NCBI RefSeq assembly: GCF_035917455.1
Contig: NZ_CP109078.1
Span: 2,852,001 to 2,916,000, forward strand
Direction of reading: 5' to 3'
Length of the DNA: 64,000 nucleotides
Origin: Micromonospora sp. NBC_01796
Lineage (GTDB): Bacteria > Actinomycetota > Actinomycetes > Mycobacteriales > Micromonosporaceae
Position numbers and translations under genes: made by a program. Under the pieces are notes generated by a model. The model was given only the letters and a program-made list of their open reading frames with translations. It did not search any database and was not told the DNA's origin. Shown here piece by piece: positions 44,650 through 59,281 of this stretch; position 1 is the first letter of the stretch, and every line of letters begins with the position of its first letter.

Positions 44650-44651
44650 CC

Positions 44652-44918
44652 ATGACGACTTCCGAGATCTCCCCGACCATCACGGTTCGCTACTTCGCGG
44701 CGGCACGGGCGGCGGCCGGAGTCAGCGAGGAGCCCGCCCCGGGCGGGCTCACCCTCGACGCCCTGGCCGACACGCTGGGCATCCGGCACGGCGAGCGGCT
44801 GGCGAGCGTACTGAAGGTGGCCAGCTTCCTGGTCGACGGTGTGGTCCAACGCGACCGGGAGCAGCCGCTGCCGGCGACCGGCACGGTCGACGTACTGCCG
44901 CCGTTCGCGGGCGGCTGA
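44652..44918 (+). CDS. moaD: MoaD/ThiS-family sulfur carrier
   Basis: An 88-residue ubiquitin-fold protein, predicted small subunit of molybdopterin synthase. ITVRYFAAARAAAGVSEEP is the MoaD N-terminus and it ends PPFAGG, with the terminal Gly-Gly that is adenylated and thiocarboxylated. ATG 44652 is preferred because GGAGG lies 6 nt upstream; ATG 44646 overlaps the moaA stop (ATGA) but is right next to that GGAGG. Its catalytic partner MoaE is encoded 14 kb away at 59304. No MoeB/MoeZ activating enzyme gene is in the window. Confidence 0.9.
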   Translation: MTTSEISPTITVRYFAAARAAAGVSEEPAPGGLTLDALADTLGIRHGERLASVLKVASFLVDGVVQRDREQPLPATGTVDVLPPFAGG

Positions 44919-44995
44919 GGGTCCTCCCCCGCGTCGGTGCCCGCCGTCACTCGTTCGTCAGCACGTGGGGGGCGGGCTACGGGAGGTGACGGTGG

Positions 44996-46198
44996 GTGAT
45001 GGCGACTGACCGCGCCGCCGACCTTGTACGGGAGCCGGACGAGCCGCAACGCGCCACGTTCATCGAACTCCTCTTCGACGTGGTGTTCGCGTTCGCGCTG
45101 ACCCGGGTGTCCCAGCAACTGTTGGACAGCATCGACGCGGGTCGCCGGATCGAGTGGCTCCCCGTCGCCGAGACCCTGGTGCTGTCGCTGGCGGTATGGA
45201 ACGTCTGGGTCTTCACCTGCTGGATCACCAGCAGGTTCAACCGGCTCTCCGCGACGATTCACGTCACCATCTCCGCGCTGATCCTCGGCAGCCTGCTGAT
45301 GGCGGTCGGCCTGCCCGGGGCGTTCGACGACCGGGGCCTGTTGTTCGCCGGGGCGTACGTGGGGTCGCAGCTCGGTCGGCCGCTGATCATTATCCTCGCG
45401 CTGGGTAACCATCCGAGGCGGCGCAACCAGGTCCGGATCCTGTGCTGGGCGGTCGGATCCGGGGTGTTCTGGATCGTCGGGGCGCTGCTACCGGCTCCGT
45501 TCCGGCTGCTCCTCTGGACGGTCGGCATCGGAATCGACTTCCTGGGCGTCCTGCTCGGCTGGCCGGTGCCGGGGCTCGGTCGTGAGCACAACGCCTGGTG
45601 GCGATTTGCCGGCGAACACCTCGCCGAGCGGTACCAGCAGTTCTTCATCCTGGCGCTCGGCGAGTCGATCCTGTTCACCGGGCTGACGTACGGCGACGGC
45701 CAGCTCACCTTCGGCCGTACGCTCGCGTTCCTGTTCGCACTCGGCAGCACCCTGCTGCTCTGGCACATCTACTTCTACCAGGCAGGAAAGGCCCTGCCCG
45801 ACGCGATGGGCCGGGCCGACCACCCCGGTCGACTCGGCCGATCGTCCAACTTCACCCAGTACGCGCTCGTGGCCGCCGTGCTCGTCACCGCGGTTGCCAA
45901 CGAGCTGGCCATCAACGACCCGTTCGGTGATCCCCGCCTCGCCTTTGTCGCCGTCACCCTGGGTGGACCGGCGGTCTTCCTGGCCGCACGGCTGCGCTTC
46001 GAGTGGGAGGTGTTCGGGCAGCGCAGTCTCGCCCTGGTCATCGGACCGGTGCTGCTCTGTGCGCTGATCCCGGTGATGCTCCACCCGCCGAAACTGGTCG
46101 CGAGCATCGTCGCCGCCGGGGTCCTGGCCTCGGTGGCCGCCGTCGAACTGGTACGCCGCAAGCGGGCCGGCCGCGCCGAACCGGCCCCACCGTTCTAG
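44996..46198 (+). CDS. Low temperature requirement protein A (LtrA family)
   Basis: A 400-residue polytopic membrane protein of the LtrA family. The N-terminal signature EPQRATFIELLFDVVFAFALTRVSQQL is complete, and further conserved parts are EHLAERYQQFFILALGESI and LLLWHIYFYQAGKALPDAM. The family is found in many bacteria; one Listeria member is needed for growth at low temperature, but its molecular function is unknown. GTG 44996 (9 nt after GGAGG) or ATG 44999 is the start. It converges on the zinc-ribbon gene at 46224 with a 25-bp gap. Confidence 0.88.
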   Translation: MMATDRAADLVREPDEPQRATFIELLFDVVFAFALTRVSQQLLDSIDAGRRIEWLPVAETLVLSLAVWNVWVFTCWITSRFNRLSATIHVTISALILGSLLMAVGLPGAFDDRGLLFAGAYVGSQLGRPLIIILALGNHPRRRNQVRILCWAVGSGVFWIVGALLPAPFRLLLWTVGIGIDFLGVLLGWPVPGLGREHNAWWRFAGEHLAERYQQFFILALGESILFTGLTYGDGQLTFGRTLAFLFALGSTLLLWHIYFYQAGKALPDAMGRADHPGRLGRSSNFTQYALVAAVLVTAVANELAINDPFGDPRLAFVAVTLGGPAVFLAARLRFEWEVFGQRSLALVIGPVLLCALIPVMLHPPKLVASIVAAGVLASVAAVELVRRKRAGRAEPAPPF

Positions 46199-46223
46199 CC
46201 GCGACGGGACCGCCCGGTACGGA

Positions 46224-48209
46224 TCAGCGCGGCTCGTCCCGTGCGGGCAGTCCGAGCGCGGCGGCTGCGGCGGACAGGGTCGGCGCCTTTGCCAACACCC
46301 GGTCGACGCCGTATTCGTGCAGGTGGACGGTGCAGCCAGCGCGATCGAAGCGTACGGTGACCGGCTTGCCGGGGTGGTGCTGCCCGAGCTGCGCGATGAG
46401 CCGGTCGGGGTGCTCGACCAGGCATGGTTGCGGCGTCTGGGGCACGGGGATCGGCTGGTGCGGGTCGGCGGGCACGGTCGCGGCGAGGGCCACTTCGAGG
46501 TACGTCACACAGTCGGCGACCGCCGCCGGCAGGCTCCGGTGCAGGGGCAGGTCGGTGAGCGGGGCGGCCGGGTCCGCAGCGGTGATCTGCACGTCCCAGC
46601 TTTCGCCGTGCACCCGCAGGGGGTCCCCGGCGTGCGATCGGTGGTCCTGCACGGTGATCGCGATGGCCAGGTGCAGTCCGAGGGCGATCCCGGTCAGCTC
46701 GGCCAGTGGTGGTGCGTCCGGCGGCCGGGCCGACAGCAGTAGCCGGCCGCCGGGGCGTCCTCGGGTGGCGCGGGCGATCTGTTCGGCGAGCGGGTCGTCG
46801 CCGGGTTGGTGCACGGTGACGATGCCGTCGCGAAGATCCTGGCTGAGCTGGTGACCGCCGTCGAGTTCGGTGAGGTCGTCCGGCCGCTGGTCGAAGCGAC
46901 CGGCCAGCCGGGCCAGCCGGTGCCGCTCGGGGGGTTGGACAACGGGTTTCCCGCCGGGCTGGGTGGCGACCTGCGGCGCGTCCACGGGCTGACGGGACCA
47001 GTTCGCGTGGGTCACCCGGTCGCCGAGGTCGGTGACGGTGACGACCGCCCCGTGGTAGACCCGACGGCTGTCGCGGCAGGTGTGGCAGGCACGGAGGCTG
47101 CTGCCCGGGTCGCAGTCGGGGCAGTCGTGGTACGGGATCGGCTCACCGAGCCAGTTCGGCGCGGGCGGTTCCCAGGCACGTACGAGTTCGGTGGTGATCT
47201 GGCGGCTCACCTGCCCGGTCGGTTGCTCGGTGAGGGTCTCGACGACGCGGCTGGGGCGCAGGGTGGTGTGCCACCACCGGCCGTTACGCCAGATCGCCTG
47301 CGCACCGGGCCAGCCCTCACAGTCCCGGATCATCCGCCGCTCGACCTGGTCGAGGTCGACGGGGTCGGGAAGGTCGGGTGGGGCGGCACCGGCCCGGAGG
47401 TAGTGCGCGGGGGCATCGTGGCCGCGCAGGTCGAACCCGTCGAAGACGTCAGCGATCGAGGCGGTGCCGTACCTGCTGGTAAGGGCGGTGGGCAGGTCGT
47501 CGGCGCGTACCCGAGGGGTGGCCGGGACGCCCCCGCCGGGCGTCTCGTAGCGGATGTCCCAGGTCGGTACACCGTTCCCCGGATTTCGCGCCTCGATGAC
47601 CAGGTCGAGAAAGAGTATGTCCGCGAGGCGGCAGAGCTGGGCGAGTCGACCGTTTGGGTCGGGGGTCGGCGCGGCGATGCTACGGCCGTGGAAGACCCGC
47701 CACGGGTTGTGTGAACAGTCGGCGAGGGCTGCCGCGACCAGCGCGTCACGCCGCTCGGCGGGCAGGTCGGGGCGCCACTCGCGGGGTAGCGCGACGTACT
47801 CGTGGCCGAGCGGGCGCCACCCGGTGGAGATGTCGGAGAGCGCGGTCGCGCCGACAACGGCGGCGAGTTCGGATATCAGCGGGGTGAGCGGCAGCTCCCA
47901 ACGCTTGTCCGCCGCCTGTCGTGGCTCGATTCCGCCGGCCGTGACATTGGCCGACGCGACCGCGCCGGTATCGGCGTTGACCACGGTGAGCACGAGCTGC
48001 GACCGGCGTTCGCCGCGCTGGCCACACTCGCGACAGGGGCGGGCGACGGCGCCGTCGCCCCGGCAGAGCAGGCAATCCCGGTACGGCTGACCGCCCGACC
48101 GCTGTTCGTCGACGAGGAACCGGTCACCGCCCCAGGTGCACTGGCAGGGGTCGAGGGTGAAGGTCAGCCCGACGCAGGCGGAGCAGGCGGCGACCGTCCC
48201 GCCGCTCAT
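46224..48209 (-). CDS. Large zinc-ribbon protein of unknown function
   Basis: A 661-residue soluble protein that I cannot assign to a known family. It has three cysteine clusters: CSACVG...CQCTW at the N-terminus (about 9-24), CLLCRGDG...CRECGQRG at about 48-65, which resembles the DnaJ CxxCxGxG zinc finger, and CPDCDPG...CHTCRDSRRV at about 368-386. Between them are aromatic-rich segments (DCSHNPWRVFHGRS, DCEGWPGAQAIWRNGRWWH). The C-terminal third is Asp/Leu/His-rich with no catalytic motif. ATG 48209 overlaps the stop of the 86-residue gene by 4 bp, so it is the last gene of a coupled operon. The GntR regulator at 49180 is divergent. Confidence 0.75.
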   Translation of the reverse strand: MSGGTVAACSACVGLTFTLDPCQCTWGGDRFLVDEQRSGGQPYRDCLLCRGDGAVARPCRECGQRGERRSQLVLTVVNADTGAVASANVTAGGIEPRQAADKRWELPLTPLISELAAVVGATALSDISTGWRPLGHEYVALPREWRPDLPAERRDALVAAALADCSHNPWRVFHGRSIAAPTPDPNGRLAQLCRLADILFLDLVIEARNPGNGVPTWDIRYETPGGGVPATPRVRADDLPTALTSRYGTASIADVFDGFDLRGHDAPAHYLRAGAAPPDLPDPVDLDQVERRMIRDCEGWPGAQAIWRNGRWWHTTLRPSRVVETLTEQPTGQVSRQITTELVRAWEPPAPNWLGEPIPYHDCPDCDPGSSLRACHTCRDSRRVYHGAVVTVTDLGDRVTHANWSRQPVDAPQVATQPGGKPVVQPPERHRLARLAGRFDQRPDDLTELDGGHQLSQDLRDGIVTVHQPGDDPLAEQIARATRGRPGGRLLLSARPPDAPPLAELTGIALGLHLAIAITVQDHRSHAGDPLRVHGESWDVQITAADPAAPLTDLPLHRSLPAAVADCVTYLEVALAATVPADPHQPIPVPQTPQPCLVEHPDRLIAQLGQHHPGKPVTVRFDRAGCTVHLHEYGVDRVLAKAPTLSAAAAALGLPARDEPR

Positions 48210-48466
48210 CGCGGCACCCGTGGGGCGCAGGGTGTTTCGTGCTCGGCCCTGAGCACGCACCGCCGGCCGTCGTCCAGCAACCGATCACAGAACACCCGAT
48301 GATGTACGCCCTGGTTGTCCTCCTCCGACACGGTGGTTTCCCGGGCGTCGACGGCGAGGAAGGACAGCGAACGAGCGGCGGTGCGGGCCAGAATGCGGGC
48401 GCGGGGCAGGTCGGGTGCGGAGATCGGCAGGTGGATGACGTACCTGGTCGGTTCGTCGGCGGTCAC
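48206..48466 (-). CDS. Small Cys-containing hypothetical protein
   Basis: An 86-residue protein of unknown function. The N-terminal half looks like one alpha/beta unit (TRYVIHLPISAPDLPRARILARTAARSLSFLAV); the C-terminal half has VFCDRLLDDGRRCVLRAEHETPC, a Cys/His cluster (CxxxxxxxxCxxxxxHxxxC) that could bind zinc. GTG 48466 overlaps the upstream stop by 4 bp (GTGA), and its own stop overlaps the ATG of the large zinc-ribbon gene by 4 bp. These overlaps show that all three genes are translated together. No family is recognised. Confidence 0.72.
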   Translation of the reverse strand: MTADEPTRYVIHLPISAPDLPRARILARTAARSLSFLAVDARETTVSEEDNQGVHHRVFCDRLLDDGRRCVLRAEHETPCAPRVPR

Positions 48467-48785
48467 CGCCGGCGGGCCAGTTCGCGCATGCTCGGCACCT
48501 GGTTGGACTGCCAGCGGCGCAGCGCGTCCTTGACCCGCGCCGTCTCCTCCCGGCTGCGGGCAAGCTCGGCGTAGACGCTGCCGAGGTCGTCGGCGACCCG
48601 GTCCAGGAAGGTGGCCACCTCATCGGGGTCCAGCCACGCCAGCTTGTCGCGAACTGCCGGCGCCGCACCTGCCAGGGCCGGATCGGGAGGTACGACGTGG
48701 AGCGGTATTCACCGCCCGCCGAGTGCCGTGGCTGGGGCTTGGGCTCTTCCGATCTCGTCAGGATGCGCCGAAGGAGTCGTCGCAC
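48463..48785 (-). CDS. Small helical protein with apparent frameshift
   Basis: First gene of the zinc-ribbon operon, apparently broken. A GTG at 48785 with GAGAGGAG 7 nt upstream starts MRRLLRRILTRSEEPKPQ in one frame. From about 48708 the likely coding signal moves to another frame, reading HVVPPDPALAGAAPAVRDK, then LAWLDPDEVATFLDRVADD and LGSVYAELARSREETARVK to the stop at 48463. That second part is a plausible coiled coil and its stop overlaps the next GTG by 4 bp. It has no start of its own other than GTG 48618, which would give 51 residues. A one-base indel, real or from sequencing, near 48705-48712 is the simplest explanation. Confidence 0.5.
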
Positions 48786-49179
48786 GTCAAGGCTCCTCTC
48801 ACTGGGGTGTCTCGGGTTCCGGTGGAAGAGGTGGCCCCGCCGTTTCGGGTCCGGCGGGACCACCCCACCCCGCCGCCGCAGCCCTGATCGGCGGTACAGC
48901 AGCGGGGTTGCTGTTGGGAACACGGGGCGGAACCGGCCGTTGGTGGACGGAGGGACGCCCACCAACGCCCGTCCCGGTGCTCCAGCGGATGCCCTGACCT
49001 GCGAAGGCGCCAACCGACCGCAAAGTCCCCGCAACCCGCCGTCCGCGACGTTAGCCGTCAGATTTCACCTATGTCAAGGTTCTCAGGTTAGCCAAAGTTG
49101 CCAATGCTGGTACCTGCGTTGCCTACGTCGAGCTTCACGATCAATACTGGGATGGCCAACCGACCCCAAGGGGCAAGCT
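48786..49179. promoter_or_regulatory. Divergent intergenic region of the GntR/zinc-ribbon locus
   Basis: About 390 bp between the divergent genes. The half near 49180 is AT-richer than the surroundings and has repeated short words (GTTAGCC at 49051 and 49088, AAGTTGCC, TCAAGGTTCTCAGG), as expected for a promoter and operator zone. The other half is GC-rich. I see no supported gene here. Confidence 0.4.
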
Positions 49180-49407
49180 GTGCCTATCCCGCCAACCATG
49201 GACGAGCTGATCGAGGACCTCGTGAGGCGCATCGAGCAGGGCGTCTTCCCACCCGGCACCAAGATCCCCTCCGGCCGCGAACTGGCCGATCACTACGACG
49301 TTTCCCCGTCGACCATCGCTCGCGCCATCGCCACCCTGCGGCAACGTGGAGTGCTGGTAGGCCGACCGGGTCGCGGGGTGTTCGTCGCCGAAAGGCAGCG
49401 GCGTTAG
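49180..49407 (+). CDS. Minimal GntR-family winged-helix regulator
   Basis: A 75-residue protein consisting only of a GntR-type winged helix: MDELIEDLVRRIEQGVFPPG, KIPSGRELADHYDVSPSTIA and RAIATLRQRGVLVGRPGRGV followed by FVAERQRR. There is no effector domain, so it either binds DNA without a ligand or needs a partner. GTG 49180 is chosen because AAGGGG lies 6 nt upstream; ATG 49198 is the alternative. It diverges from the zinc-ribbon operon and likely regulates it. Small GntR proteins of this kind occur on actinobacterial integrative elements and in chromosomal islands. Confidence 0.82.
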   Translation: MPIPPTMDELIEDLVRRIEQGVFPPGTKIPSGRELADHYDVSPSTIARAIATLRQRGVLVGRPGRGVFVAERQRR

Positions 49408-49435
49408 CGGGTGCGGCTCAGTTTCCGTTCGGGAC

Positions 49436-49475
49436 GTACACCATCTTTGATGTGAATACATCGAAGATGGTGTAC
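49436..49475. repeat. 40-bp palindrome after GntR gene
   Basis: Arms GTACACCATCTTTGATGT (49436-49453) and ACATCGAAGATGGTGTAC (49458-49475) match at 17 of 18 positions around a 4-nt loop. Outer TCGGGACGTA (49429-49438) and TACGTCCCGG form a further nested inverted pair. It may be a terminator for the GntR gene or a protein-binding site. The rest of 49408-49651 shows nothing else. Confidence 0.7.
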
Positions 49476-49651
49476 GAGATTGCCGCGTTATACGTCCCGG
49501 ACGGAGAGACAGCGGGCGTCAGCCTTCCTGGCTCGCGACGCGCCACCAACGGCATCGCACGACATCCGCCGATCACATCGCCCGGCACCCTGCTGGTCTG
49601 CCGGCGAGAAATCACACTCGCGCGTGGCGACACGCGCCCGCGCGACGGCCC

Positions 49652-52600
49652 ATGACAGGATGCGGCGTGCTTCCGTTCAGCGCTGCACCTTCCGGCGGCC
49701 CCGCCTCGACCGCCGGCTCCTTCGTCGCGGACCTGCACATCCACTCGAAATACTCGCGCGCCTGTAGCCGGGACCTGACGCTGCCGAACCTGGGCTGGTG
49801 GGCCAAGCGCAAGGGCATCAGCGTGCTCGGCACCGGCGACTTCACCCACCCCGCCTGGTACGACCACCTGCGCGAGACGCTGCGCCCGGCCGAACCGGGG
49901 CTCTACCGGCTCAGCCCGGACGCGGAACGGGACATCGCCCGCCGCCTGCCGCCCCGGCTGTCCAGCGTGGCCGAGGCGAACCCGGTCCGCTACCAGCTCA
50001 GCGTCGAGATCTCCACGATCTACAAGCGTGACGACCGGACCCGGAAGGTGCACCACCTGATCTACCTGCCGGACCTGGACGCGGTCGCGCGGTTCAACAC
50101 CGTACTGGGGCGGATCGGGAACATCGGGTCCGACGGGCGGCCGATCCTCGGGCTCGACTCCCGCGACCTGCTGGAGATCGTGCTCGAGGCGAGCCCCGAC
50201 GGTTACCTCGTCCCGGCGCACATCTGGACGCCGTGGTTCTCCGCGCTCGGCTCCAAGTCCGGCTTCGACGCGATCGCCGACTGCTACGCCGACCTGGCCG
50301 AACACATCTTCGCGGTGGAGACCGGCCTCTCCTCCGACCCGGCGATGAACTGGCGGGTCTCCAGCCTCGACCGCTACCGCCTGGTCTCGAACTCGGACGC
50401 GCACTCCCCGGCGGCCCTGGCCCGCGAGGCCACCGTCTTCACCACCGACGTGGACTACTACGCGATCCGGTCGGCGATGCGTACCGGCGACGGGCTGGCG
50501 GGGACCATCGAGTTCTTCCCCGAGGAGGGGAAGTACCACGCGGACGGACACCGGCTCTGCGGTGTCAACTGGGCACCCGAGCGGACCCGGCAGGCGGGCG
50601 GCCTCTGCCCGGAGTGCGGCAAGCCCCTCACCGTCGGGGTGCTGAGCCGGGTCGAGGACCTCGCCGACCGGCCGGAGGGACACGTACCGGCGGGCGCGCC
50701 ACGGGTGAACCACCTGGTCCAGCTCGCCGAGATCCTGGGCGAGATCAACGGGGTGGGCCCGAAGTCGAAGACGGTCGAGGGGCAGCTCAACAACCTGGTC
50801 GCCGCGCTCGGCGCCGAACTCGACATCCTCACCGCCGTACCCCTGGACGACCTGCGGCAGGCCGGTGGGGAACGGATCGCCGAGGCGATCGACCGGCTGC
50901 GCCGGGGCGAGGTACGCCGGATCCCCGGCTACGACGGCGAGTACGGCGTGATCAGCCTCTTCGAACCGGGCGAACTACGCGGCGCGGGTGCGGCCGGCGA
51001 ACCGGAGGCGCTCTTCGACGTACCCGTGTCGGTGCCCCGGCCCCGACCGGCGGCGGAGTCGGCGCCGAAGCCACGGGCCAAGCCCGCCGCGAAGGCCGCC
51101 GCCGAGCCGAAACGCCGACCGGCCCGGACCGTGCCCGCCCCGGCCCCGCCGATCGCCCCGCCGCCCTCACCGCACGAACCGTTCGAGCCGATGCTCGCCG
51201 GGATGGAGGAGGTCGGCACCGGGCTGCTCGACCGCCTCGACGCGATGCAGCGGGTGGCCGCCTCGGCACCCGGCGGGCCGCTGCTCATCGTCGCCGGTCC
51301 GGGCACCGGTAAGACCCGTACGCTGACCCACCGGATCGCGTACCTCTGCGCGGAGCTGAACGTCTTCCCGGAGCACTGCCTGGCGATCACCTTCACCCGG
51401 CGGTCCGCCGAGGAGTTGCAGGCCCGGCTCGACGGCCTGCTCGGCCCGGTGGCCGAGGACATCACCGTCGGCACGTTCCACTCGCTCGGCCTGTCGATCC
51501 TGCGGGAGCACCCGGCCGCCGCCGGCCTGCCGGAGAACTTCCGGATCGCCGACGACACCGAGCGGACCGCCGCGCGGGCCGAGGCCGGCGAGGACGAGGC
51601 GACGTACGTCAAGCTGCTGCGCGGCCAGGACCTGGTCGACCTGGACGAGCTGGTGACCCTGCCGGTACGGCTGCTGCGCGACGATCCGGAGCTGGTCCGG
51701 GAGTACCGGGACCGCTGGCGGTGGATCTTCGTCGACGAGTACCAGGACGTCGACGAGGTCCAGTACGAGCTGCTCCGGCTGCTCGCACCGCCGGACGGCA
51801 ACCTCTGCGCGATCGGCGACCCGGACCAGGCGATCTACTCGTTCCGGGGCGCGGACGTGGCGTACTTCCTGCGGTTCTCGGAGGATTTCGTCGACGCCCG
51901 GCTGGTCCGGCTCACCCGCAACTACCGCTCGTCGGCGCCGATCCTGGCCGCCGCCGTCCAGGCCATCGCACCGACGTCGCTGGTCCGGGGCCGACGGCTG
52001 GATCCGGCCCGGCTGGACCCGGAGGCACCGCTGGTCGGCCGCTATCCGGCCGCCTCGATCGCGGACGAGGCGAACTTCGTCGTACGGACCGTCGACGACC
52101 TGGTCGGTGGGCTGTCGCACCGGTCGTTGGACTCGGGCCGGATCGACGGTCGCAACTCGACCGTCTCCTTCTCCGACATCGCGGTCCTCTACCGCACCGA
52201 CGCCCAGGCCGCGACGATCGTGGACGCGCTGGTCCGGGCCGGGGTGCCGGTGCAGAAGCGCTCGCACAACCGGCTGCGCGACCGGCCCGGGGTGGCGGTG
52301 ATCGCCCGCGAGCTGCGGCACGCCGACGGGCTCGGCGGCTCCCTGGCGGCCCGGGTACGGCTCGCCGGGCAGGTACTCGCCGAGCGGTTCGCGATGCCCA
52401 CCCTGGACGCGCCCGGCGGCATCGGCCCGGAGGAGATCCGCAACGCGGTCGACCTGCTCACCCCGCTGGCCCAGCGGTGCGGCGACGACCTGCCGCTGTT
52501 CCTGTCGCAGCTCGCCACCGGTGCCGAGGTCGACGCCCTGGACCCGCGCGCCGAGGCGGTCACCCTGCTCACCCTGCACGCCGCCAAGGGGCTGGAGTTC

Positions 52601-52888
52601 CCGGTGGTGTTCCTGGTCGGCTGCGAGGACGGGCTGCTCCCGCTGCGTTTCCCCGGCCGCCCGCCGACCGACGACGACGTGGCCGAGGAGCGCCGGTTGT
52701 TCTTCGTCGGGCTCACCCGCGCCCAGGACCGGCTCTACGTCAGCCACGCGGCCCGACGGGTACGGCACGGTCAGGAGCGGGACTGCGTACCGACCCCGTT
52801 CCTGGACGCGATCGACCCGGGCCTGTTCGAGCGCTTCGGCGACACCGAGCCGCGCCGCCCCAAGGACCGCCAACTCCGCCTCCTCTGA
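49652..52888 (+). CDS. EndoQ-like PHP nuclease fused to UvrD-family helicase
   Basis: A 1078-residue DNA-repair-type protein. Residues about 20-450 resemble endonuclease Q: a PHP metal site with DLHIHSKYS (His29, His31), GTGDFTHP (Asp63, His66), AHIWTPW and SNSDAHSP (Asp249, His251), a zinc knuckle HRLC...CPEC (His300, Cys303, Cys319, Cys322) and a helix-hairpin-helix GEINGVGPKSKTV. A Lys/Ala/Pro linker (about 455-510) leads to an SF1A helicase (about 520-1060): Walker A GPGTGKT (Lys554), TFTRRSAEELQARL, VDEYQDVDE (Asp695, Glu696), GDPDQAIYSFRG, TRNYRS, TLHAAKGLEFPVV and GLTRAQDRLYVSHA. The fusion would unwind and nick damaged DNA. ATG 49652 or GTG 49667 is the start. It is monocistronic. Confidence 0.92.
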   Translation: MTGCGVLPFSAAPSGGPASTAGSFVADLHIHSKYSRACSRDLTLPNLGWWAKRKGISVLGTGDFTHPAWYDHLRETLRPAEPGLYRLSPDAERDIARRLPPRLSSVAEANPVRYQLSVEISTIYKRDDRTRKVHHLIYLPDLDAVARFNTVLGRIGNIGSDGRPILGLDSRDLLEIVLEASPDGYLVPAHIWTPWFSALGSKSGFDAIADCYADLAEHIFAVETGLSSDPAMNWRVSSLDRYRLVSNSDAHSPAALAREATVFTTDVDYYAIRSAMRTGDGLAGTIEFFPEEGKYHADGHRLCGVNWAPERTRQAGGLCPECGKPLTVGVLSRVEDLADRPEGHVPAGAPRVNHLVQLAEILGEINGVGPKSKTVEGQLNNLVAALGAELDILTAVPLDDLRQAGGERIAEAIDRLRRGEVRRIPGYDGEYGVISLFEPGELRGAGAAGEPEALFDVPVSVPRPRPAAESAPKPRAKPAAKAAAEPKRRPARTVPAPAPPIAPPPSPHEPFEPMLAGMEEVGTGLLDRLDAMQRVAASAPGGPLLIVAGPGTGKTRTLTHRIAYLCAELNVFPEHCLAITFTRRSAEELQARLDGLLGPVAEDITVGTFHSLGLSILREHPAAAGLPENFRIADDTERTAARAEAGEDEATYVKLLRGQDLVDLDELVTLPVRLLRDDPELVREYRDRWRWIFVDEYQDVDEVQYELLRLLAPPDGNLCAIGDPDQAIYSFRGADVAYFLRFSEDFVDARLVRLTRNYRSSAPILAAAVQAIAPTSLVRGRRLDPARLDPEAPLVGRYPAASIADEANFVVRTVDDLVGGLSHRSLDSGRIDGRNSTVSFSDIAVLYRTDAQAATIVDALVRAGVPVQKRSHNRLRDRPGVAVIARELRHADGLGGSLAARVRLAGQVLAERFAMPTLDAPGGIGPEEIRNAVDLLTPLAQRCGDDLPLFLSQLATGAEVDALDPRAEAVTLLTLHAAKGLEFPVVFLVGCEDGLLPLRFPGRPPTDDDVAEERRLFFVGLTRAQDRLYVSHAARRVRHGQERDCVPTPFLDAIDPGLFERFGDTEPRRPKDRQLRLL

Positions 52889-52925
52889 GCCGCCGCCCCC
52901 GTCGAGCCTCCGGGCGGGCCCGTCG

Positions 52926-53663
52926 TCAGCCTTCGAGGAGGATGGCGAGCAGGGCGCCGGTGAGCAGGGCGGGGCCGAAGGGGAGCGGTGTGCTCCGGTC
53001 GGCGCGCCGGCCCAGTAGCAGGACGAGCGCCACGGTGCCGTTGATCAGGTGCGGTAGGACCAGCCCGAGCAGGAGCGCCGGCCAGCCGTACCAGCCCAGC
53101 GGCAGGCCGAGTACGGCAGCCAGTTTCACGTCGCCGAAGCCGAGCCGGGCGCCGGGCAGGAGCGCGAGCAGCACGTAGACCACGCCGCTGGCGAGCCCGG
53201 CGACCAGGGCGCGTACGAGTGGGTCGGGGGTGCCGAGGACCAGCGCGGCGCCGGCGAGGCCGAGCAGGGCGGCCACCGCACCGAGCGCCACCAGTGGGTC
53301 GGGCAGCCGCAGGCAGGCCAGGTCGACGAAGGCCAGCGGCAGGCCGACCGCGGCCACCGCCAGCACCGCCGGCAGCGCCGGGTCGATCCCGGTGTCGGTG
53401 GCGAGAGCGGCGGTGAGCAGGCCGAACACGGCCGCGCCGAGGGCGGCCGGAGATCCGGTACGGGAACCCAGACGCGCGCCGCAGCCCGGGCAGCGCGCGT
53501 CGGGGCGTATCCAGCCGGGCAGGCCACGCGGGAACGGGCGGGTGCACACCGCGCAGGCCGACCGCGGCGGCGATCCCGACTCGACGGCGAGCCGATGGAC
53601 CAGCCACGGTGTGCTCGCCCCGACCACCGCCCCGAGGGTGACGGCGGCGAGCACGGCGAACAT
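52926..53663 (-). CDS. Prepilin peptidase (A24 family)
   Basis: A 245-residue polytopic aspartic protease that cleaves type IV prepilin or Flp-pilin leaders. The N-terminal zinc motif CAVCTRPF...CPGCGA (about 37-60), the first catalytic Asp in FVDLACLRLPD and the second in LGFGDVKLAAVLG are all present. Seven or eight hydrophobic segments fit the family. ATG 53663 gives the expected MFAVLAAVTLGAVVGAS first helix; the long upstream frame is a shadow. It suggests that the organism makes Tad/Flp pili or a related system, although no pilin gene is in the window. Confidence 0.9.
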   Translation of the reverse strand: MFAVLAAVTLGAVVGASTPWLVHRLAVESGSPPRSACAVCTRPFPRGLPGWIRPDARCPGCGARLGSRTGSPAALGAAVFGLLTAALATDTGIDPALPAVLAVAAVGLPLAFVDLACLRLPDPLVALGAVAALLGLAGAALVLGTPDPLVRALVAGLASGVVYVLLALLPGARLGFGDVKLAAVLGLPLGWYGWPALLLGLVLPHLINGTVALVLLLGRRADRSTPLPFGPALLTGALLAILLEG

Positions 53664-53897
53664 GCGCTCGGATGTTAACGCCGGACCACCACGCCGGGCG
53701 ACCCCCGAGTCGACTGGGTGACACTCCCCCGCTGTCGACCGCTTCCGGGAAGGTACGGATCCGGCAAAGCCGACCGACTCGGCGAGTTGGCGCGGTTGGG
53801 GGAGGTGAGCCGGTCGGGGCGTCGCGATACGGTGACCTGAGCATCGCCGTCGCCCGCGGGTGGCCAGCCTCTTTCTCTCGTGCCAGGAGGACCGTCC

Positions 53898-54917
53898 ATG
53901 TCTAACTACGGACCGCCCGGCGGGCCGTACCCGGGCCAGCCGCCGTACCCCGGCCAGGAGCCGGAGCCATGGCCCGGTCAGCAGCAGGGCCCGCGAGGCC
54001 AGCAGAGGCCCGGACAGCCGCACCCCGACCAGCAGGGTCCGTATCCGGGTCAGCAGGAGCCGTATCCGGGGCAACAGGAGCCGTGGCCGGGGCAGCAGCA
54101 GGACGACCCGTACCGCCGGCCGCAGGCCGAGCCGTACCGGCAGCCGGGAGGCCAGCAGCCGGGTCCCGGGTATCCGCAGGAGCCGTACCGGCAGCCGCAG
54201 GACCCGTACCGGCAGCCACGCGACCCGTACGCCCAGCCGCGCGACCCGTACGCCCAGCCGGCCGATCCGTGGGGCGGCGGCCAGGAGCAGTGGGGTGGCG
54301 GTCCGACCTCGGTCCCGCCGGGCGGCCCCGGCTCGCCGAGCGGCTACCAGGACTACCGCGACCAGGGCTACCGCGACCAGGGCTACCCGCCGGGTTATCC
54401 CGCGCCGGGACCGGATCCCGAGTGGACCACGGCCAGCCCGGTGCCGCCGAAGCGGGGCAACCGGGGGATGACCGCGGTCCTGGTCACGCTGGTGGTGCTG
54501 GTCCTCGGCGTCGGCGGGGCGGCCTTCTGGTGGCTCGGGCGCGACAGCGGCGGGTCGGACCCGGTGCCGAACGCGGGCGCGACCACCCCCGCCACGGACC
54601 CGAGCGCCCAGGCGCCGGCCGAGCCGAGTGCCGACCCGGCGCAGGGCGCCCCGGCACCGGAGTCGTCGACCGACGCGCGGCTGGTCAAGGAGGGCCAGTG
54701 CGTGAAGAACGAGGGCGACGCGAGCGGCAAGCCGAAGCTGGCCATCACCCAGTGCGCGCCGAAGACGTACGAGGTGCTGCGGCGCTTCGACGGGGCCACC
54801 GACGGTGAGAACGACGCGAAGACGAAGTGCGCCCCGGTCGAGGGCTACACCGAGTGGTACTTCTTCAACAGCGAACTCGACGTCCTCGACTTCGTGCTCT
54901 GCCTCAAGTCACGCTGA
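53898..54917 (+). CDS. LppU/SCO3897-type membrane protein with disordered N-terminus
   Basis: A 339-residue single-pass membrane protein. Residues 1-185 are low complexity, rich in Pro, Gly, Gln and Tyr with repeated words (PYPGQQEP, DPYRQP, DPYAQPRD, DYRDQGY). One hydrophobic helix follows (TAVLVTLVVLVLGVGGAAFWWLG, about 195-217), then a Pro/Ala/Ser spacer and a small extracellular domain with four cysteines (GQCVKNEGD, ITQCAPKTY, TKCAPVEG, FVLCLKSR), matching the LppU/SCO3897 domain from memory. ATG 53898 has GGAGG 8 nt upstream. The function is unknown; SCO3897 lies near oriC in Streptomyces. Confidence 0.85.
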   Translation: MSNYGPPGGPYPGQPPYPGQEPEPWPGQQQGPRGQQRPGQPHPDQQGPYPGQQEPYPGQQEPWPGQQQDDPYRRPQAEPYRQPGGQQPGPGYPQEPYRQPQDPYRQPRDPYAQPRDPYAQPADPWGGGQEQWGGGPTSVPPGGPGSPSGYQDYRDQGYRDQGYPPGYPAPGPDPEWTTASPVPPKRGNRGMTAVLVTLVVLVLGVGGAAFWWLGRDSGGSDPVPNAGATTPATDPSAQAPAEPSADPAQGAPAPESSTDARLVKEGQCVKNEGDASGKPKLAITQCAPKTYEVLRRFDGATDGENDAKTKCAPVEGYTEWYFFNSELDVLDFVLCLKSR

Positions 54918-54945
54918 CCCGGGCCGGGGTCACACCCGATTGTGG

Positions 54946-54987
54946 AAACTAGGACTGTCTAGCGGAATTGCTAGACAGTCCTAGTTT
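54946..54987. terminator. Hairpin terminator, 18-bp perfect inverted repeat
   Basis: AAACTAGGACTGTCTAGC pairs with GCTAGACAGTCCTAGTTT around the 6-nt loop GGAATT. The T-rich end suits termination of the upstream gene. The inner part is also copy 1 of the paired palindrome described next. Confidence 0.7.
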
Positions 54988-55043
54988 ATTCACGAGACGA
55001 CACGCCGTAGCGGGATCTACCTGTTTCTAGCCCAGTGGCTAGA
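54958..55043. promoter_or_regulatory. Two TCTAGC-N6-GCTAGA palindromes (candidate operators)
   Basis: TCTAGC-GGAATT-GCTAGA (54958-54975) and TCTAGC-CCAGTG-GCTAGA (55026-55043) are 18-bp palindromes with identical arms and different centres, 68 bp apart. The second ends 8 bp before the likely -10 of the ATPase gene. The arrangement suggests a dimeric repressor binding at two sites. Confidence 0.6.
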
Positions 55044-55051
55044 CGTGCCGA

Positions 55052-55057
55052 TACGGT
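55052..55057 (+). promoter_or_regulatory. Candidate -10 (TACGGT), leaderless
   Basis: TACGGT ends 7 bp before GTG 55065 and decides that start. Confidence 0.5.
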
Positions 55058-55064
55058 GCAATGC

Positions 55065-56315
55065 GTGGATCCGGTCCGCAACCCGTACGCCCCCGGCGCC
55101 GGCCAGCGCCCGCCCGAACTCGCCGGCCGGGGGCGGGAACTCGACGTCTTCGACATCGTCCTCGAACGGGTCGCCCGAGGGCGCCCGGAACGCAGCCTGA
55201 TGCTCACCGGCCTGCGCGGCGTCGGCAAGACCGTACTGCTCAACACGCTGCGGTCACAGGCCATCGGGCGACTCTGGGGCACCGGCAAGATCGAGGCCCG
55301 GCCGGACCAGTCGCTGCGCCGCCCGGTGGCCGCCGCCCTGCACATGGCCGTACGCGAACTCGCCCCGCACCACCGGGCACCGGACCGGATCGACGGCTTC
55401 CTCGGCGTACTCAAAGCGTTTGCCCTGCGGGGCGGACCGGCCGCCGGCAGCGGTCGGGGGGCCGCCGCAACCAAGCTGCGCGACCGCTGGCAGCCCGGCA
55501 TCGACGTGCCCGCCGCCAGCGGTCGGGCCGACTCCGGCGACATCGAGATCGACCTGGTCGAACTCCTCACCGACGCGGCCAGCGTGGCCACCGACGTCGG
55601 CACCGGCATCGCCGTCTTCATCGACGAGATGCAGGACGTGAACCCCGAGGACGTCTCCGCCCTCTGCGCCGCCTGCCACGAGCTGTCCCAGCTCGGCGCA
55701 CCGCTGATCGTGGTCGGTGCCGGGCTCCCGCACCTGCCCGCCGTGCTGTCGGCGGCCAAGTCCTACTCGGAGCGACTGTTCCGCTACCAGCGCATCGACC
55801 GGCTCGACCGGATCGCCGCCGACCAGGCCCTCTGCGCCCCCGCCGAACGGGAGGACGTCGAGTACGAGCAGAAGGCGCTCGACCTGCTCTACGAGAAGTC
55901 CGGCGGTTACCCCTACTTCGTCCAGGCGTACGGGAAGGCGACCTGGGACCACGCGCCCCGCTCCCCGGTCACCGCCGCCGACGTACGGGTCGCCGCACCG
56001 GAGGCGGAGGCGGAGCTGGCGGTCGGCTTCTTCGGCTCCCGGTTCGAACGGGCTACCCCGGCCGAACGCGAGTACATGCGGGCGATGGCCACGTTGTCCC
56101 TGGTCGCCGGGGAGGAAACCGGCGTCGAGCGCGACGACATGGACGCGGCCGTACCGACCGCAGAGATCGCCCGAGCGCTCGGTCGGAAACCGGCGAGCCT
56201 CTCCCCGGCCCGGGATGCGCTGATCAAGAAGGGGCTCATCTACTCGGGTGAGCGGGGCACGGTGGCGTTCACCGTGCCGCACTTCGGTCGCTACCTGCGT
56301 ACGCAACCGGCCTGA
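55065..56315 (+). CDS. AAA/STAND-type ATPase with C-terminal winged helix
   Basis: A 416-residue soluble ATPase. Walker A GLRGVGKT is at 49-56 after LAGRGRELDVFDIVLERV; Walker B VFIDEMQD has Asp187 and Glu188; sensor-like VVGAGLPHLP follows. The C-terminal part (about 330-416) resembles a winged helix: TAEIARALGRKPASLSPARDALIKKGLIYSG. This is the layout of orc1/cdc6-like or STAND regulatory ATPases, which switch state with nucleotide and bind DNA or a partner. GTG 55065 is preferred because TACGGT is 7 bp upstream; GTG 55035 is unlikely. Two identical-arm palindromes lie upstream. The partner and signal are unknown. Confidence 0.85.
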   Translation: MDPVRNPYAPGAGQRPPELAGRGRELDVFDIVLERVARGRPERSLMLTGLRGVGKTVLLNTLRSQAIGRLWGTGKIEARPDQSLRRPVAAALHMAVRELAPHHRAPDRIDGFLGVLKAFALRGGPAAGSGRGAAATKLRDRWQPGIDVPAASGRADSGDIEIDLVELLTDAASVATDVGTGIAVFIDEMQDVNPEDVSALCAACHELSQLGAPLIVVGAGLPHLPAVLSAAKSYSERLFRYQRIDRLDRIAADQALCAPAEREDVEYEQKALDLLYEKSGGYPYFVQAYGKATWDHAPRSPVTAADVRVAAPEAEAELAVGFFGSRFERATPAEREYMRAMATLSLVAGEETGVERDDMDAAVPTAEIARALGRKPASLSPARDALIKKGLIYSGERGTVAFTVPHFGRYLRTQPA

Positions 56316-56339
56316 ACGCCCACTGTCGGCCCGGCGTGA

Positions 56340-56879
56340 TCAGACCCGGGACCACGGCAGGGGGTAGTTGACCTCGCCGCTGAGCACCGCGCCGTCACCG
56401 CTGACCGACGGCGGCAACAGCAACGCCTGCCAGGGCGCACCCAGCCCCGACCAGGGACTGGTCAGCTCGTATCTCGCCGCCGGCACGAACCCGAACCGGC
56501 GGTAGTACGCCGGATCGCCGAGCACCACCACCAGCCGCTCACCCAGCTCGGTCGCGGCGGCGAGCGCGGCCTGCACCACGTCGGTGCCGTACCCCACCCC
56601 GCGCCGCTTCGGCAGCACCGCCACCGGCCCCAGCGCCAACGCCGGCACCGCACCCGGCTGCACCATCACCCGGGTGAGCAGGGCGTACCCGACCACGTCG
56701 CCATCGACCTCGGCCACCATGGACAGCTCCGGCAGCCACGCGTCACTGTCCCGGAGCGCCTCGACCAGTCGCACCTCGGCCGGCACCGGCCGGTCCGGGG
56801 CGGCGAAGGCGGCAGCCACCACCCGACGGATCGCCGGTTCGTCGGCGGGCCCCTCGGGTCGCAGCCGTACAGTCGTCAC
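56340..56879 (-). CDS. GNAT family N-acetyltransferase
   Basis: A 179-residue acetyltransferase. The acetyl-CoA pyrophosphate loop is LPKRRGVGYGTDVVQAAL (the RxxGxG/A-type motif, about 91-108) after LALGPVAVLP; the C-terminal region has VVLGDPAYYRRFGFVPA, typical of the YhbS-like subgroup. VEALRDSDAWLPELSMVAEVDGDVVGYALL gives the conserved first strands. The acceptor is unknown. GTG 56879 is supported by TAGCGT 8 bp upstream. It converges on the ATPase gene, 24 bp from its stop. Confidence 0.9.
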   Translation of the reverse strand: MTTVRLRPEGPADEPAIRRVVAAAFAAPDRPVPAEVRLVEALRDSDAWLPELSMVAEVDGDVVGYALLTRVMVQPGAVPALALGPVAVLPKRRGVGYGTDVVQAALAAATELGERLVVVLGDPAYYRRFGFVPAARYELTSPWSGLGAPWQALLLPPSVSGDGAVLSGEVNYPLPWSRV

Positions 56880-56887
56880 GCCTGGCG

Positions 56888-56893
56888 ACGCTA
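56888..56893 (-). promoter_or_regulatory. Candidate -10 (TAGCGT on minus strand), leaderless
   Basis: The hexamer ends 8 bp before GTG 56879 of the GNAT gene. Confidence 0.4.
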
Positions 56894-57042
56894 CCGGTAC
56901 GCAGACCCCGTCTGCATTACGATTCGCCGACCAAATACCTGATCAAGGCTGGTCACAGCCCTGTCGGGCAGTCGCGGGCGGCGTACGGCCAGTCCGGCAG
57001 TTGCGGGGGTAAAGGGGGCGCCGAGCGGGTAAGACTGGACCC

Positions 57043-57588
57043 ATGAGACCCGTACGTACCGTCGCCCGGACCCTGCTGAGCGGCATCTTCGTGGTCAGCG
57101 GCGCACAGGCGGTCGCCACCCCCAAGCCGTTCATGGCTCGGGCACAGCGGGTGACGGACCGGGTCGCCCCGCTCGTGGCCCGTACCAGCCCCCGACTGCC
57201 GACCGACCCGGAGACGCTGGTCCGGGTCAACGGGACGGTCCAGCTCGTCGGCGGGCTGATGCTCGCCACCGGTTACTTTCCCCGTACGGCCGCGGCCGTG
57301 CTCGCCGGCACCCTCGTACCGACCACGCTGGCCGGGCACGCGTACTGGCAGGAGGACGATCCCGCGCAGCGGCGCCGCCAGCGGACCGAGCTGCTGAAGA
57401 ACCTGGGGCTGTTCGGCGGTCTGCTGCTCGCCGCGGTCGACAACGAGGGCAGGCCCGGTTTGCGTTGGCGCGCCGGACACGCGATCGTCGACAGCCGGCG
57501 GTCGGTGAGTCGTACCGTGCGACACGCCCGACGGGGTACACGGATCGCGGCGACCTCCGCGCGGGCCGCGCGCCGGCTGCCGGGGTGA
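57043..57588 (+). CDS. DoxX family membrane protein
   Basis: A 181-residue membrane protein of the DoxX/SURF4 type. The N-terminal segment RTVARTLLSGIFVVSGAQAV is the family start; ETLVRVNGTVQLVGGLMLATGYFPR and AAAVLAGTLVPTTLAGHAYWQEDD follow, then KNLGLFGGLLLAAVDNEG. There are four hydrophobic segments. The ~45-residue C-terminus is very Arg-rich and cytoplasmic. Family members have been linked to thiosulfate:quinone oxidoreductase and redox stress, but most are uncharacterised. A weak TAAGAC lies 7 bp before ATG 57043. Confidence 0.88.
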   Translation: MRPVRTVARTLLSGIFVVSGAQAVATPKPFMARAQRVTDRVAPLVARTSPRLPTDPETLVRVNGTVQLVGGLMLATGYFPRTAAAVLAGTLVPTTLAGHAYWQEDDPAQRRRQRTELLKNLGLFGGLLLAAVDNEGRPGLRWRAGHAIVDSRRSVSRTVRHARRGTRIAATSARAARRLPG

Positions 57589-57762
57589 CCTGCGGCAACC
57601 GTTTGAGCTGCGTCGATATCGGGGCGTGTCCCCTCCGGTACGGCGGAAACGGCGAATCACCTGAAACAGTCGCCCTGCGTTAACGTGGTGGAAATGTCGC
57701 GAACTAGTGTGGGATCGGACACGGTCGGATAACGCAGTAGGCAATCACATGGTGCTCCGCTC

Positions 57763-57768
57763 TAGGCT
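57763..57768 (+). promoter_or_regulatory. Candidate -10 (TAGGCT) with leader
   Basis: TAGGCT lies ~60 bp before ATG 57830. Unlike the others it would give an mRNA with a leader and a GGGGTGG ribosome site. Confidence 0.3.
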
Positions 57769-57829
57769 CCCATCAGGACCTGGGCGCGATTTCGGAAAGT
57801 TCGACAACTTGTACGGGGGTGGCCACACC

Positions 57830-59281
57830 ATGCCGGCGACCGTCGGGAGACGGCTGGACCGACTTGCCCCAGTCCGCCGTGTCACACGTGGGATCGACCG
57901 TCGAACCGTCGCTCGGCTCGGCCTCATAGCCGCGACCTGGTACGCCGCCTGGCTGTCCATTGACGCGTTCGGACGCCCGTACAACTTCTTCGACATGAAG
58001 ATCTACCACGGTGCGATCGTCTGGTGGGCCAGCGGCAACGACCTCTACGGCTTCATCGCGCCGATGACCACGCTCGGCTTCACCTATCCACCGTTCGCGG
58101 CCCTGATCATGCTGCCGATGGCCTGGTTCCCGGTCGGCGCCGCCGGTTGGCTCAACGTGTTCGCCAGCCTCGCCGCGCTCACGGTTGTCCTCACCGCACT
58201 GTTGCGACCGACCGTCGAACGCCTCGGCTGGTCGCTCTGGTTCGTCGTCGGCATCGCCGTACCGCTCGCGGTGGCGATCGAACCGGTACGGGAGACCCTC
58301 GGCTACGGCCAGGTCAACCTGCTCCTGTTCGGCCTCATCATGGCCGATCTGGTGGCCCTGCGGTGGCGGGCCCGGCGCGGGATCCGTACCGGCTGGACGG
58401 ACCGGCCGCTGCGCCGGTTCTTCTTCAGCGGTGCCTGGGCCGGTGTCGGCATCGGACTGGCCACCTCGGTCAAGCTCACCCCGGCGCTGTTCATCCTGTA
58501 CTTCCTGCTGACCCGGCAGTGGCGCGCCGCGATGACCGCGATCGGCACCACCATCGGCGTGATCCTGGCGACCTTCGCGATCGCCGGCCGCGAGTCGATG
58601 ACCTACTTCACCAGCGTGATCTGGCAGACCGAGCGGGTCGGTGCGGCGGACATGACGCCGAACCAGTCGCTGGCCGGGGTTCTCGCCCGCCTCTACGACT
58701 CGATCGAGACCCCGGGCCTGCTCTGGCTCTCGTTCGCCCTGGTCATCCTCGCGATCGGACTCTCCCGGGCGGGCAACGCGCACGCCGACGGCGACGAGTT
58801 GACCGCGTTCACCCTGGTCGGGCTGACCGCCAACGTGATCAGCCCGGTCTCCTGGTCGCACCACCTCGTCTGGGTGGTCCCGGCGGTCATCGTGCTCGCG
58901 GACAACGCCCTGCGCCGCCGACGCGCCAGCCGTGGCCTGCTGCACCGGATCGGCCCACCACCGTCCCAGAACAACCTGATCGGCGTCGCCGGTCTGCGCT
59001 CACCGATCTGGTTCCCGACCCTGACCGGGCTCCGGCACGGGGTCGCCGCTGTCGGCCTCTACCTGCTGTTCCTGATCTCGCCGATCTGGCCGTACGAGCA
59101 CAAGCTGCCCGAGGTGTCGCACTACCAGGACGGCCTCTTCGGGGCGCTGATGGAGAACTCGCTCGCGTTGGCGCTGATCGTGCTGGTCGCGACGCTGCCC
59201 TGGCGTCCCGGCGCCGAACCCGCGTTCTACACCGAGCGGCGCCGACCGGGATCCGTCCCGCTGCACCACGGCCAGCACTGA
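57830..59281 (+). CDS. GT87 family glycosyltransferase (polyprenyl-P-mannose type)
   Basis: A 483-residue polytopic membrane protein of the GT-C fold, DUF2029/GT87 group. The first loop has GRPYNFFDMKIYHGAIVWWASGNDLYGF with the conserved catalytic Asp. Then come TLGFTYPPFAALIMLPMAWF, ETLGYGQVNLLLFGLIMAD and TSVKLTPALFILYFLL, all typical of actinobacterial alpha-mannosyltransferases such as PimE and MptB relatives. About ten hydrophobic segments are visible. It would add mannose from polyprenyl-phosphomannose to envelope glycolipids outside the membrane. ATG 57830 has GGGGTGG 8 nt upstream. The acceptor is not determined. Confidence 0.88.
   Translation: MPATVGRRLDRLAPVRRVTRGIDRRTVARLGLIAATWYAAWLSIDAFGRPYNFFDMKIYHGAIVWWASGNDLYGFIAPMTTLGFTYPPFAALIMLPMAWFPVGAAGWLNVFASLAALTVVLTALLRPTVERLGWSLWFVVGIAVPLAVAIEPVRETLGYGQVNLLLFGLIMADLVALRWRARRGIRTGWTDRPLRRFFFSGAWAGVGIGLATSVKLTPALFILYFLLTRQWRAAMTAIGTTIGVILATFAIAGRESMTYFTSVIWQTERVGAADMTPNQSLAGVLARLYDSIETPGLLWLSFALVILAIGLSRAGNAHADGDELTAFTLVGLTANVISPVSWSHHLVWVVPAVIVLADNALRRRRASRGLLHRIGPPPSQNNLIGVAGLRSPIWFPTLTGLRHGVAAVGLYLLFLISPIWPYEHKLPEVSHYQDGLFGALMENSLALALIVLVATLPWRPGAEPAFYTERRRPGSVPLHHGQH

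Follow-up and report, generated by a model that had tools for sequence, protein, structure and literature searches.

Endonuclease Q (EndoQ) has been described as a chiefly archaeal enzyme with representatives in few bacterial genera (PMC4357722, PMC4858679). For a route combining it with EndoV, removal "by helicase activity" has been proposed (PMC4357722). The C-terminal PIP box of archaeal EndoQ binds PCNA, which stimulates the enzyme, and clamp motifs in standalone bacterial EndoQs were noted by the same authors (PMC4858679). Here we describe a gene that joins an EndoQ domain to a helicase of superfamily 1A (SF1A), located in a stretch of 64,000 nucleotides from Micromonospora sp. NBC_01796 (contig NZ_CP109078.1, positions 2,852,001 to 2,916,000; hereafter the window), a genome of 8.56 Mb in one contig (G000). 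The gene is a single forward frame with an ATG start, encoding 1078 amino acids (aa) that comprise the EndoQ domain, a linker, the helicase and a C-terminal clamp motif. The nuclease-helicase fusion, pointed out in an earlier note on this DNA, is confirmed and is far beyond chance, because both domains share one frame in 25 of 25 loci read from the window's family; the exception among these is L062, in which a late frame change leaves the tail to be read in another frame. As the same note had held, such proteins are annotated only as UvrD helicases: Pfam names the helicase part alone (UvrD-helicase/UvrD_C), hiding the nuclease, and what is uncovered here is likely a repair gene. We regard the product as rather probably a clamp-tethered lesion nickase-helicase for incision repair, and a helicase-linked, clamp-tagged EndoQ would offer a concrete candidate for lesion removal after an EndoQ nick. 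The parts are known already; their joined, clamp-tagged and widespread form is apparently undescribed in the open PMC literature searched, and the portions of it consulted, a part of all literature, hold no mention of an EndoQ-helicase fusion.

Compared with EndoQ as known from PfuEndoQ (P. furiosus, Pfu), TkoEndoQ, TIGR00375 and the bacterial standalone forms, the product shares the fold, the PHP ligands, the Zn knuckle, the checked pocket residues and a C-terminal clamp motif. It differs in the added helicase, in a Zn knuckle whose first pair is HxxC (first residue histidine) where Pfu has CxxC, and in a clamp motif that is of the bacterial type and stands after the helicase. Its match to TIGR00375 (E 2e-44, 152.5 bits) lies under the cut-off of that model (326.6), and we accordingly treat the product as an EndoQ-domain protein from a separate branch and do not count it as a member of TIGR00375; the cut-off is reached by none of the 300 genomes of the family and by two of the three matching control genomes. 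With UvrD, PcrA and Rep it has the motor motifs and motor fold in common, while its shortened 1B and 2B, short C-terminal part, terminal clamp motif and preceding nuclease set it apart. RepD is a nickase, and the RepD-PcrA pair is directed to origins and the MutL-UvrD pair to mismatches, not to base lesions. In both, a UvrD-type helicase is activated by a partner that nicks or repairs DNA, albeit a separate protein (PMC13238157), and they may serve as precedents for a partner-driven motor. A helicase is also joined to a nuclease in RecB(CD), AddAB and AdnAB, which contain no EndoQ domain. The nuclease of these complexes is of the RecB type and they act on double-strand ends, and E. coli Lhr belongs to a different helicase superfamily. 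Lhr does resemble the fused protein in joining a helicase to a uracil-acting repair domain, which is a uracil-DNA glycosylase (PMC10953399) and not a nicking endonuclease. The features of the fused gene, in window coordinates, are the following:

49652..52888, + strand: whole fused gene, 1078 aa (open reading frame (ORF), Pfam, phmmer, model).
49730..50971, + strand: EndoQ domain, aa 27-440, with PHP metal centre, Zn knuckle and C-terminal helical part (phmmer to 5zb8/7k30, VIA Z 44.0, alignment A1).
49730..49747, + strand: PHP motif I DLHIHS, with H29 and H31 aligned to Pfu H8 and H10 (alignment).
50006..50008, + strand: E119, at the expected place of the Pfu metal ligand E76 (by position and total conservation only).
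50051..50053, + strand: H134, aligned to the metal ligand H84 of Pfu (alignment, PMC8307549).
50219..50221, + strand: H190, aligned to Pfu H139, metal ligand and pocket wall (alignment, PMC8307549).
50324..50332, + strand: G225-x-S227, aligned to Pfu G169 and S171, which reportedly keep T and A out of the pocket (alignment, PMC8307549).
50390..50404, + strand: NSDAH, aa 247-251, with D249 and H251 aligned to Pfu D193 and H195 (alignment).
50549..50617, + strand: Zn knuckle HxxC...CxxC, aa 300-322 (conservation across 112 loci).
50987..51217, + strand: Pro/Ala-rich disordered linker (pLDDT < 50 at model residues 422-498).
51215..52849, + strand: SF1A helicase core of the UvrD/PcrA/Rep type (Pfam, sequence match to solved chains, Z 33.2 to D. 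radiodurans UvrD).
51293..51316, + strand: Walker A, AGPGTGKT (sequence, alignment A2).
51734..51748, + strand: motif II, DEYQD (sequence, alignment A2).
52274..52558, + strand: shortened 2B region between motifs IV and V (motif spacing; ends estimated from the model).
52871..52885, + strand: predicted sliding-clamp-binding motif QLRLL, the final five residues, aa 1074-1078 (consensus in PMC4549789 and PMC13254535).

In phmmer searches, solved EndoQ chains (5zb8, 7k30-7k33) are found with the N-terminal part (best E 4.6e-46), and the first 440 residues are 34% identical to P. furiosus EndoQ in alignment A1, in which the Pfu row is partial. An AlphaFold2 model was built from 68 fused homologues (model residue n corresponds to aa n+24), with a mean per-residue confidence (pLDDT) of 83.4, a predicted template-modelling score (pTM) of 0.51, and a disordered linker and tail. 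Its residues 1-421 superpose on 5zb8_B with a VIA Z of 44.0 and a root-mean-square deviation of 2.5 (380 aligned of 398 residues) and on the dU-DNA complex 7k30 with a Z of 43.2, and Foldseek assigns the predicted model to the EndoQ fold with a TM by target of 0.87. The complete PHP metal site and zinc knuckle described in the earlier note were found as named there (DLHIHS, GTGDFTHP, SNSDAHSP and HxxC...CxxC), with equivalents of Pfu H8, H10, E76, H84, H139, D193 and H195 all present; H8, H10, D193 and H195 are assigned as ligands after the pattern of the PHP family. PMC8307549 names E76, H84 and H139 as metal ligands and ascribes the steric gating of the base pocket to H139, G169 and S171. 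Lack of the base pocket or loss of metal residues across relatives had been put forward as findings that would tell against an EndoQ domain; on both points the outcome favours the domain, apart from one replaced histidine. The comparison covers 112 loci assigned to the fused class, among them the window itself and two loci that break off ahead of the helicase; 86 remain once near copies are removed. The three pocket residues are kept in all 112 and so are all ligands other than H8, which is kept in 111 and is glutamine in one; the equivalence of E119 to E76 is by position and this total conservation. C303 and C319 of the Zn knuckle are likewise kept in all 112 loci, and C322 in 111. The single H8 replacement is in L115, an alphaproteobacterial metagenome-assembled genome, which reads DVQIHS for DLHIHS and retains the other ligands checked. 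The 112-locus set, with L115 and L141 included, gives the fair count for the ligands: the apparent invariance of H5/H7 in alignment A2 (68 rows, excluding truncated loci, L062, L076, near-identical Micromonospora rows, L115 and L141) is partly by construction, since L115 and L141 were removed by the DLHxHS filter. A helix-hairpin-helix (HhH), which had also been claimed, is partly borne out, the region around GVGPKSK forming two helices with a turn between them in the model, while no HhH profile matched the fused protein at E 0.001 in the Pfam scan. By its predicted fold, its metal ligands and the three pocket residues checked, the N-terminal domain is to be read as a real EndoQ, and by analogy the fused protein would cleave 5' of dU, dI or an abasic (AP) site.

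From about residue 520, the C-terminal part matches PcrA, UvrD and Rep chains (best E 1.5e-81) in exactly the same ORF, as the claim of SF1A helicase motifs had it. The motifs Walker A GPGTGKT, DEYQD, GDPDQAIYSFRGA and LLTLHAAKGLEF are invariant in the 68 preselected rows of A2, and model residues 498-1042 group with UvrD, PcrA and Rep by Foldseek and VIA (Z 33.2 to D. radiodurans UvrD). The spacing of the motifs differs from that in the PcrA-like protein of the same genome: 132 aa against 226 between motifs IV and V, 86 against 131 from TFH to motif II, and 103 residues after motif V against at least 194, the medians across fused loci being 129, 86 and 103, respectively. Judged by these spacings, the motor is pared down, with shortened 1B and 2B. 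Together with a PcrA model score of 366 bits, where the cut-off is 911, they indicate an SF1A motor and not a PcrA/UvrD equivalog. Unwinding would be expected to proceed 3' to 5', as in the rest of the family. The genome carries separate PcrA-, UvrD2- and AdnA/B-like frames (names given by size and match rank), and the fused protein is therefore an extra. The 2B region is autoinhibitory and its deletion activates Rep, and the partners MutL, PriC and RepD activate UvrD, Rep and PcrA, respectively (PMC13238157).

The earlier note had missed both the C-terminal clamp motif and a two-gene form of the system. Bacterial sliding-clamp-binding motifs read QLxLF (PMC4549789), with the consensus Q-phi-x-[L/M]-[F/L] (PMC13254535), which the final residues QLRLL fit; they lie in a tail that is disordered in the model (pLDDT < 50). 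Equivalent tails in other phyla are QLSLF, QLDLF, QLELF, QMSLF and similar. The pattern Q[LMIF]x[LMIF][FLIVMY] within the last 14 residues, written after the tails were seen, is present in 94 of 103 complete fused proteins (truncated ORFs left out), in 70 of 77 without near copies, and in all six fused proteins fetched later. As controls, it occurs in 16 of 1209 called neighbour genes (five of the 16 are fragments of the fused or operon proteins themselves, and eight are a single gene family recurring in related genomes), and in 18 of 4309 six-frame open stretches (non-genes) and 154 of 28400 shuffled tails. It is absent from the four UvrD-type paralogue frames of the window genome with the C-terminus covered, the C-termini of the PcrA- and AdnA/B-like frames lying outside the stretch. 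E. coli RecB has also been reported to bind the beta clamp (PMC13254535). The tag probably ties the fused protein to the replication machinery; as predicted from the motif, the clamp tether is retained in the fused form and is now placed behind the helicase.

In the two-gene form, the EndoQ is followed, at most about 700 bases downstream, by a separate helicase frame of 496-696 aa. Reading 36 Omnitrophota loci gave 5 fused, 10 two-gene and 21 with no helicase in the stretch read, and L150 is an eleventh two-gene locus. When L150 and the split gastranaerophilal L136 are included, the clamp motif ends 10 of 12 EndoQs and 11 of 12 helicases of two-gene loci. In the EndoQ tree, 84 fused, 12 operon and 2 contig-end-cut sequences form one branch together with 6 of the 28 standalone sequences (Shimodaira-Hasegawa-like approximate likelihood-ratio test, SH-aLRT, 99), and the other 22 standalone sequences fall outside it. 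All 53 EndoQ-linked helicases separate from four paralogues of the window's own genome (SH-aLRT 98). Since the helicase-linked EndoQs form one clade and the linked helicases another, the pair travels together. Both trees are quick searches with SH-aLRT support only; the root of the EndoQ tree is unsure because of an incomplete, very long Pfu row, and the helicase tree, with four outgroup rows all from one genome, shows kinship and not a lack of closer outside relatives. In Gastranaerophilales, a run of 8-10 A stands at the EndoQ/helicase boundary in several loci. In L268, L271 and L272 (10 A) and L269 (9 A) the EndoQ, of about 420-450 aa, is separate and the helicase is read in a different frame, and one fused protein is encoded in L122, L131 (both 9 A) and L132 (8 A); L125 has 6 A at the junction, and L127 and L142 are without such a run. 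Such a run might allow slippage or phase-variable switching between the fusion and a free EndoQ, or it might be an assembly error.

The broad scan confirmed at least 585 relatives. The 80 loci retained from them scored highest against an alignment made up mostly of fused sequences and hence lean towards that form, a bias from which the phylum surveys are free; some loci are apparently one genome twice (e.g. L053/L094, L064/L101, L136/L272). A TIGR00375 match was found in 272 of 300 genomes of the window's family and in 9 of 396 genomes of its phylum, two of these weak, so that in the survey of actinobacteria suggested earlier the gene is core in the family and otherwise rare. With moaA in the flanks of 20 of 25 loci and this frequency in the family, the gene is core and mostly vertical there. 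Among the matches listed, the closest named relatives are Micromonosporaceae, with Plantactinospora endophytica at the top (89% across the EndoQ domain). Elsewhere, matches occur in 91 of 145 Omnitrophota genomes (5 with a frame of at least 900 aa), in 81 of 118 genomes of the phylum of a Binatia genome (32 such frames), in 47 of 194 of the phylum of a Gastranaerophilales bin (35) and in 5 of 201 of the phylum to which an Anaerolineae bin belongs (2). Some few matches are weak and frame length alone is no proof of fusion; all 12 of the long frames read from these samples are fused. On these sequence matches EndoQ appears common in several bacterial phyla, and a restriction to mainly archaea and a few bacteria, as assumed in the earlier note, understates its spread. 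The suggestion that the fusion suits a high-GC genome does not hold, as 14 of 109 fused loci have less than 45% G+C (locus G+C, not that of the whole genome).

For the preferred reading of a lesion nickase-helicase, we infer the following course of events, from substrate range, polarity and loading strand to clamp binding and all later steps. The pocket of the EndoQ half would receive the flipped-out lesion, either an abasic site or one of the deaminated bases uracil and hypoxanthine, and the enzyme would cut the backbone 5' of it, leaving a 3'-OH and a 5'-phosphate end that bears the lesion. The fused 3'-to-5' helicase would load at the nick on the intact strand and travel 3' to 5', leaving the 3'-OH behind; since such a motor runs on the intact strand from the nick, it would advance the same way as synthesis and displace the strand with the lesion as a 5' flap. 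A clamp-bound polymerase could then extend the 3'-OH behind the helicase, a flap nuclease remove the flap and a ligase seal. Just as archaeal EndoQ is tethered to PCNA by its PIP box, the fused protein would be held on the clamp by its C-terminal QLRLL, and the clamp would keep enzyme and polymerase at one site. Nicking and unwinding by one polypeptide, as conceived earlier, is thus the best reading, and the domains, fold and residues fit it; the description of the route as self-contained is too strong, because polymerase, flap nuclease and ligase are still needed. More tentatively, we can envisage a widespread bacterial excision pathway, a strand-displacement repair directed to lesions. In it, one clamp-bound protein, or a pair encoded in an operon, would detect deaminated or missing bases, incise on their 5' side and strip the damaged strand away in front of the polymerase, merging the roles of glycosylase/AP-endonuclease and UvrD and possibly patrolling newly replicated DNA behind the fork. 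The findings may in this sense point to a widespread, apparently undescribed bacterial route for cutting out damaged DNA.

Several points weigh against the nickase-helicase reading. The shortened 2B might alter what the helicase can unwind, and the disordered linker and pTM of 0.51 imply that nuclease and helicase may not work in concert as a single complex. The clamp pattern fails in 9 of the 103 fused proteins: L062 and L076 have a frame change, with the motif present in another frame, L096 has QLSLL twelve residues ahead of the end, and the remaining misses read QPRLL (twice, one genome), QPKLI, QQRLF, QMSFDF and QRTLF. Standalone EndoQs carry the motif in only 12 of 27 and 10 of 30 cases (18 of 30 by a looser pattern), and in four split gastranaerophilal genes it is on the helicase only. 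Fusion genomes also carry several matches to the uracil-DNA glycosylase (UDG) family and mostly EndoV, which makes the need for the fusion not obvious. No repair family is among the 25 commonest of the 213 Pfam families matched in 118 neighbour proteins (90-1000 aa, from 43 loci outside the window's family, genes called by a codon-bias script). The SOS-type box GAACN4GTTC occurs in only 2 of 78 upstream stretches of 350 bases, against 5 of 1560 random stretches, and three other SOS/PafBC patterns in none of the 78. Finally, the lesions acted on could be AP sites and not deaminated bases. In its fuller form, this view makes the nuclease half chiefly an abasic-site or blocked-end enzyme, similar to an AP-endonuclease, which with the helicase would carry out long-patch base excision after glycosylases. 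The preference of P. furiosus EndoQ for an abasic analogue over Hx or U in double-stranded DNA (PMC11354406) speaks for it, as does the UDG family in all 54 genomes examined, by which AP sites arise anyway. An AP-only enzyme would, however, have no obvious need of G169, S171 and H139, the residues reported to separate U/Hx from T/A, which all 112 loci keep; a structural role for them is possible, and we consider this explanation unlikely.

It is more improbable still that the fusion serves co-regulation only, with nuclease and helicase working independently, for instance in lesion nicking on the one side and, at the clamp, in the removal of R-loops or stalled forks on the other. The long disordered linker and the pTM of 0.51 would suit such independence, and so would the operon forms, which mostly retain a clamp motif on each protein. 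Set against this, the EndoQ-linked helicases, fused or adjacent, form a clade of their own apart from the PcrA-, UvrD2- and AdnA/B-like paralogues (a small outgroup), and the fused ones are shortened in the same places, which suggests specialisation of the helicase for EndoQ. Least probable of all is an antiviral or anti-mobile-element enzyme attacking foreign DNA rich in uracil or modified bases. The GajB helicase models of PADLOC do match the helicase half, but the top one gives 229 bits, less than the 366 bits of PcrA, and the PADLOC matches reflect generic UvrD similarity. Gabija features an adjacent gene for the OLD/TOPRIM nuclease GajA, which was not found among the window neighbours scanned (two frames per side). 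No close relative turned up in pattern scans of viral contigs, no tblastn match was obtained in phages or plasmids, and no defence family is among the 25 commonest neighbour families; the gene is moreover core in its family, with moaA mostly kept in its flanks. A possible antiviral role of Bacillus EndoQ has been mentioned (PMC8307549). A defence or mobile origin was rejected on the empty viral-contig, phage and plasmid scans and the generic UvrD-type PADLOC matches.

The co-occurrence of the fused protein with uracil-DNA glycosylases, which had been proposed as a check, was followed in 54 genomes, of which 24 belong to the family and have EndoQ, 20 belong to it and lack EndoQ, and 10 are others. 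PF03167 is present in 54 of 54, and the fused protein is therefore no stand-in for a uracil glycosylase; replacement of that enzyme was rejected on this ground. The 24 fusion-bearing family genomes have 2-6 UDG-superfamily matches each and the 20 without it 1-4, in counts that ignore kinship. EndoV (PF04493) is found in 43 of 53 genomes (the same set without G399). Six fusion-bearing family genomes have weak or partial EndoV matches only and one has none, it is missing in 3 of 19 family genomes without EndoQ, and there is no clear pattern overall. As a rule, the fused protein does not appear to replace EndoV.

The fused gene sits amid molybdenum-cofactor genes (window 43540-61631), with moaA and a ThiS-family gene upstream and moaE, moeA and a MoCF-domain gene downstream; the upstream moaA lies inside flanks of roughly 9 kb in the 20 family loci mentioned. 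The two frames scanned on each side gave GntR, a sub-threshold zinc-finger match, a prepilin peptidase or no Pfam match. Among the 118 neighbour proteins outside the family, methyltransferases are the commonest Pfam family, with 5 members, and two proteins match cytidine/deoxycytidylate-deaminase families. An AAA_16 ATPase at 55065-56312 (+ strand) of the window shows 99.5% identity in the two closest genomes, L041 and L042, above the other neighbours compared.

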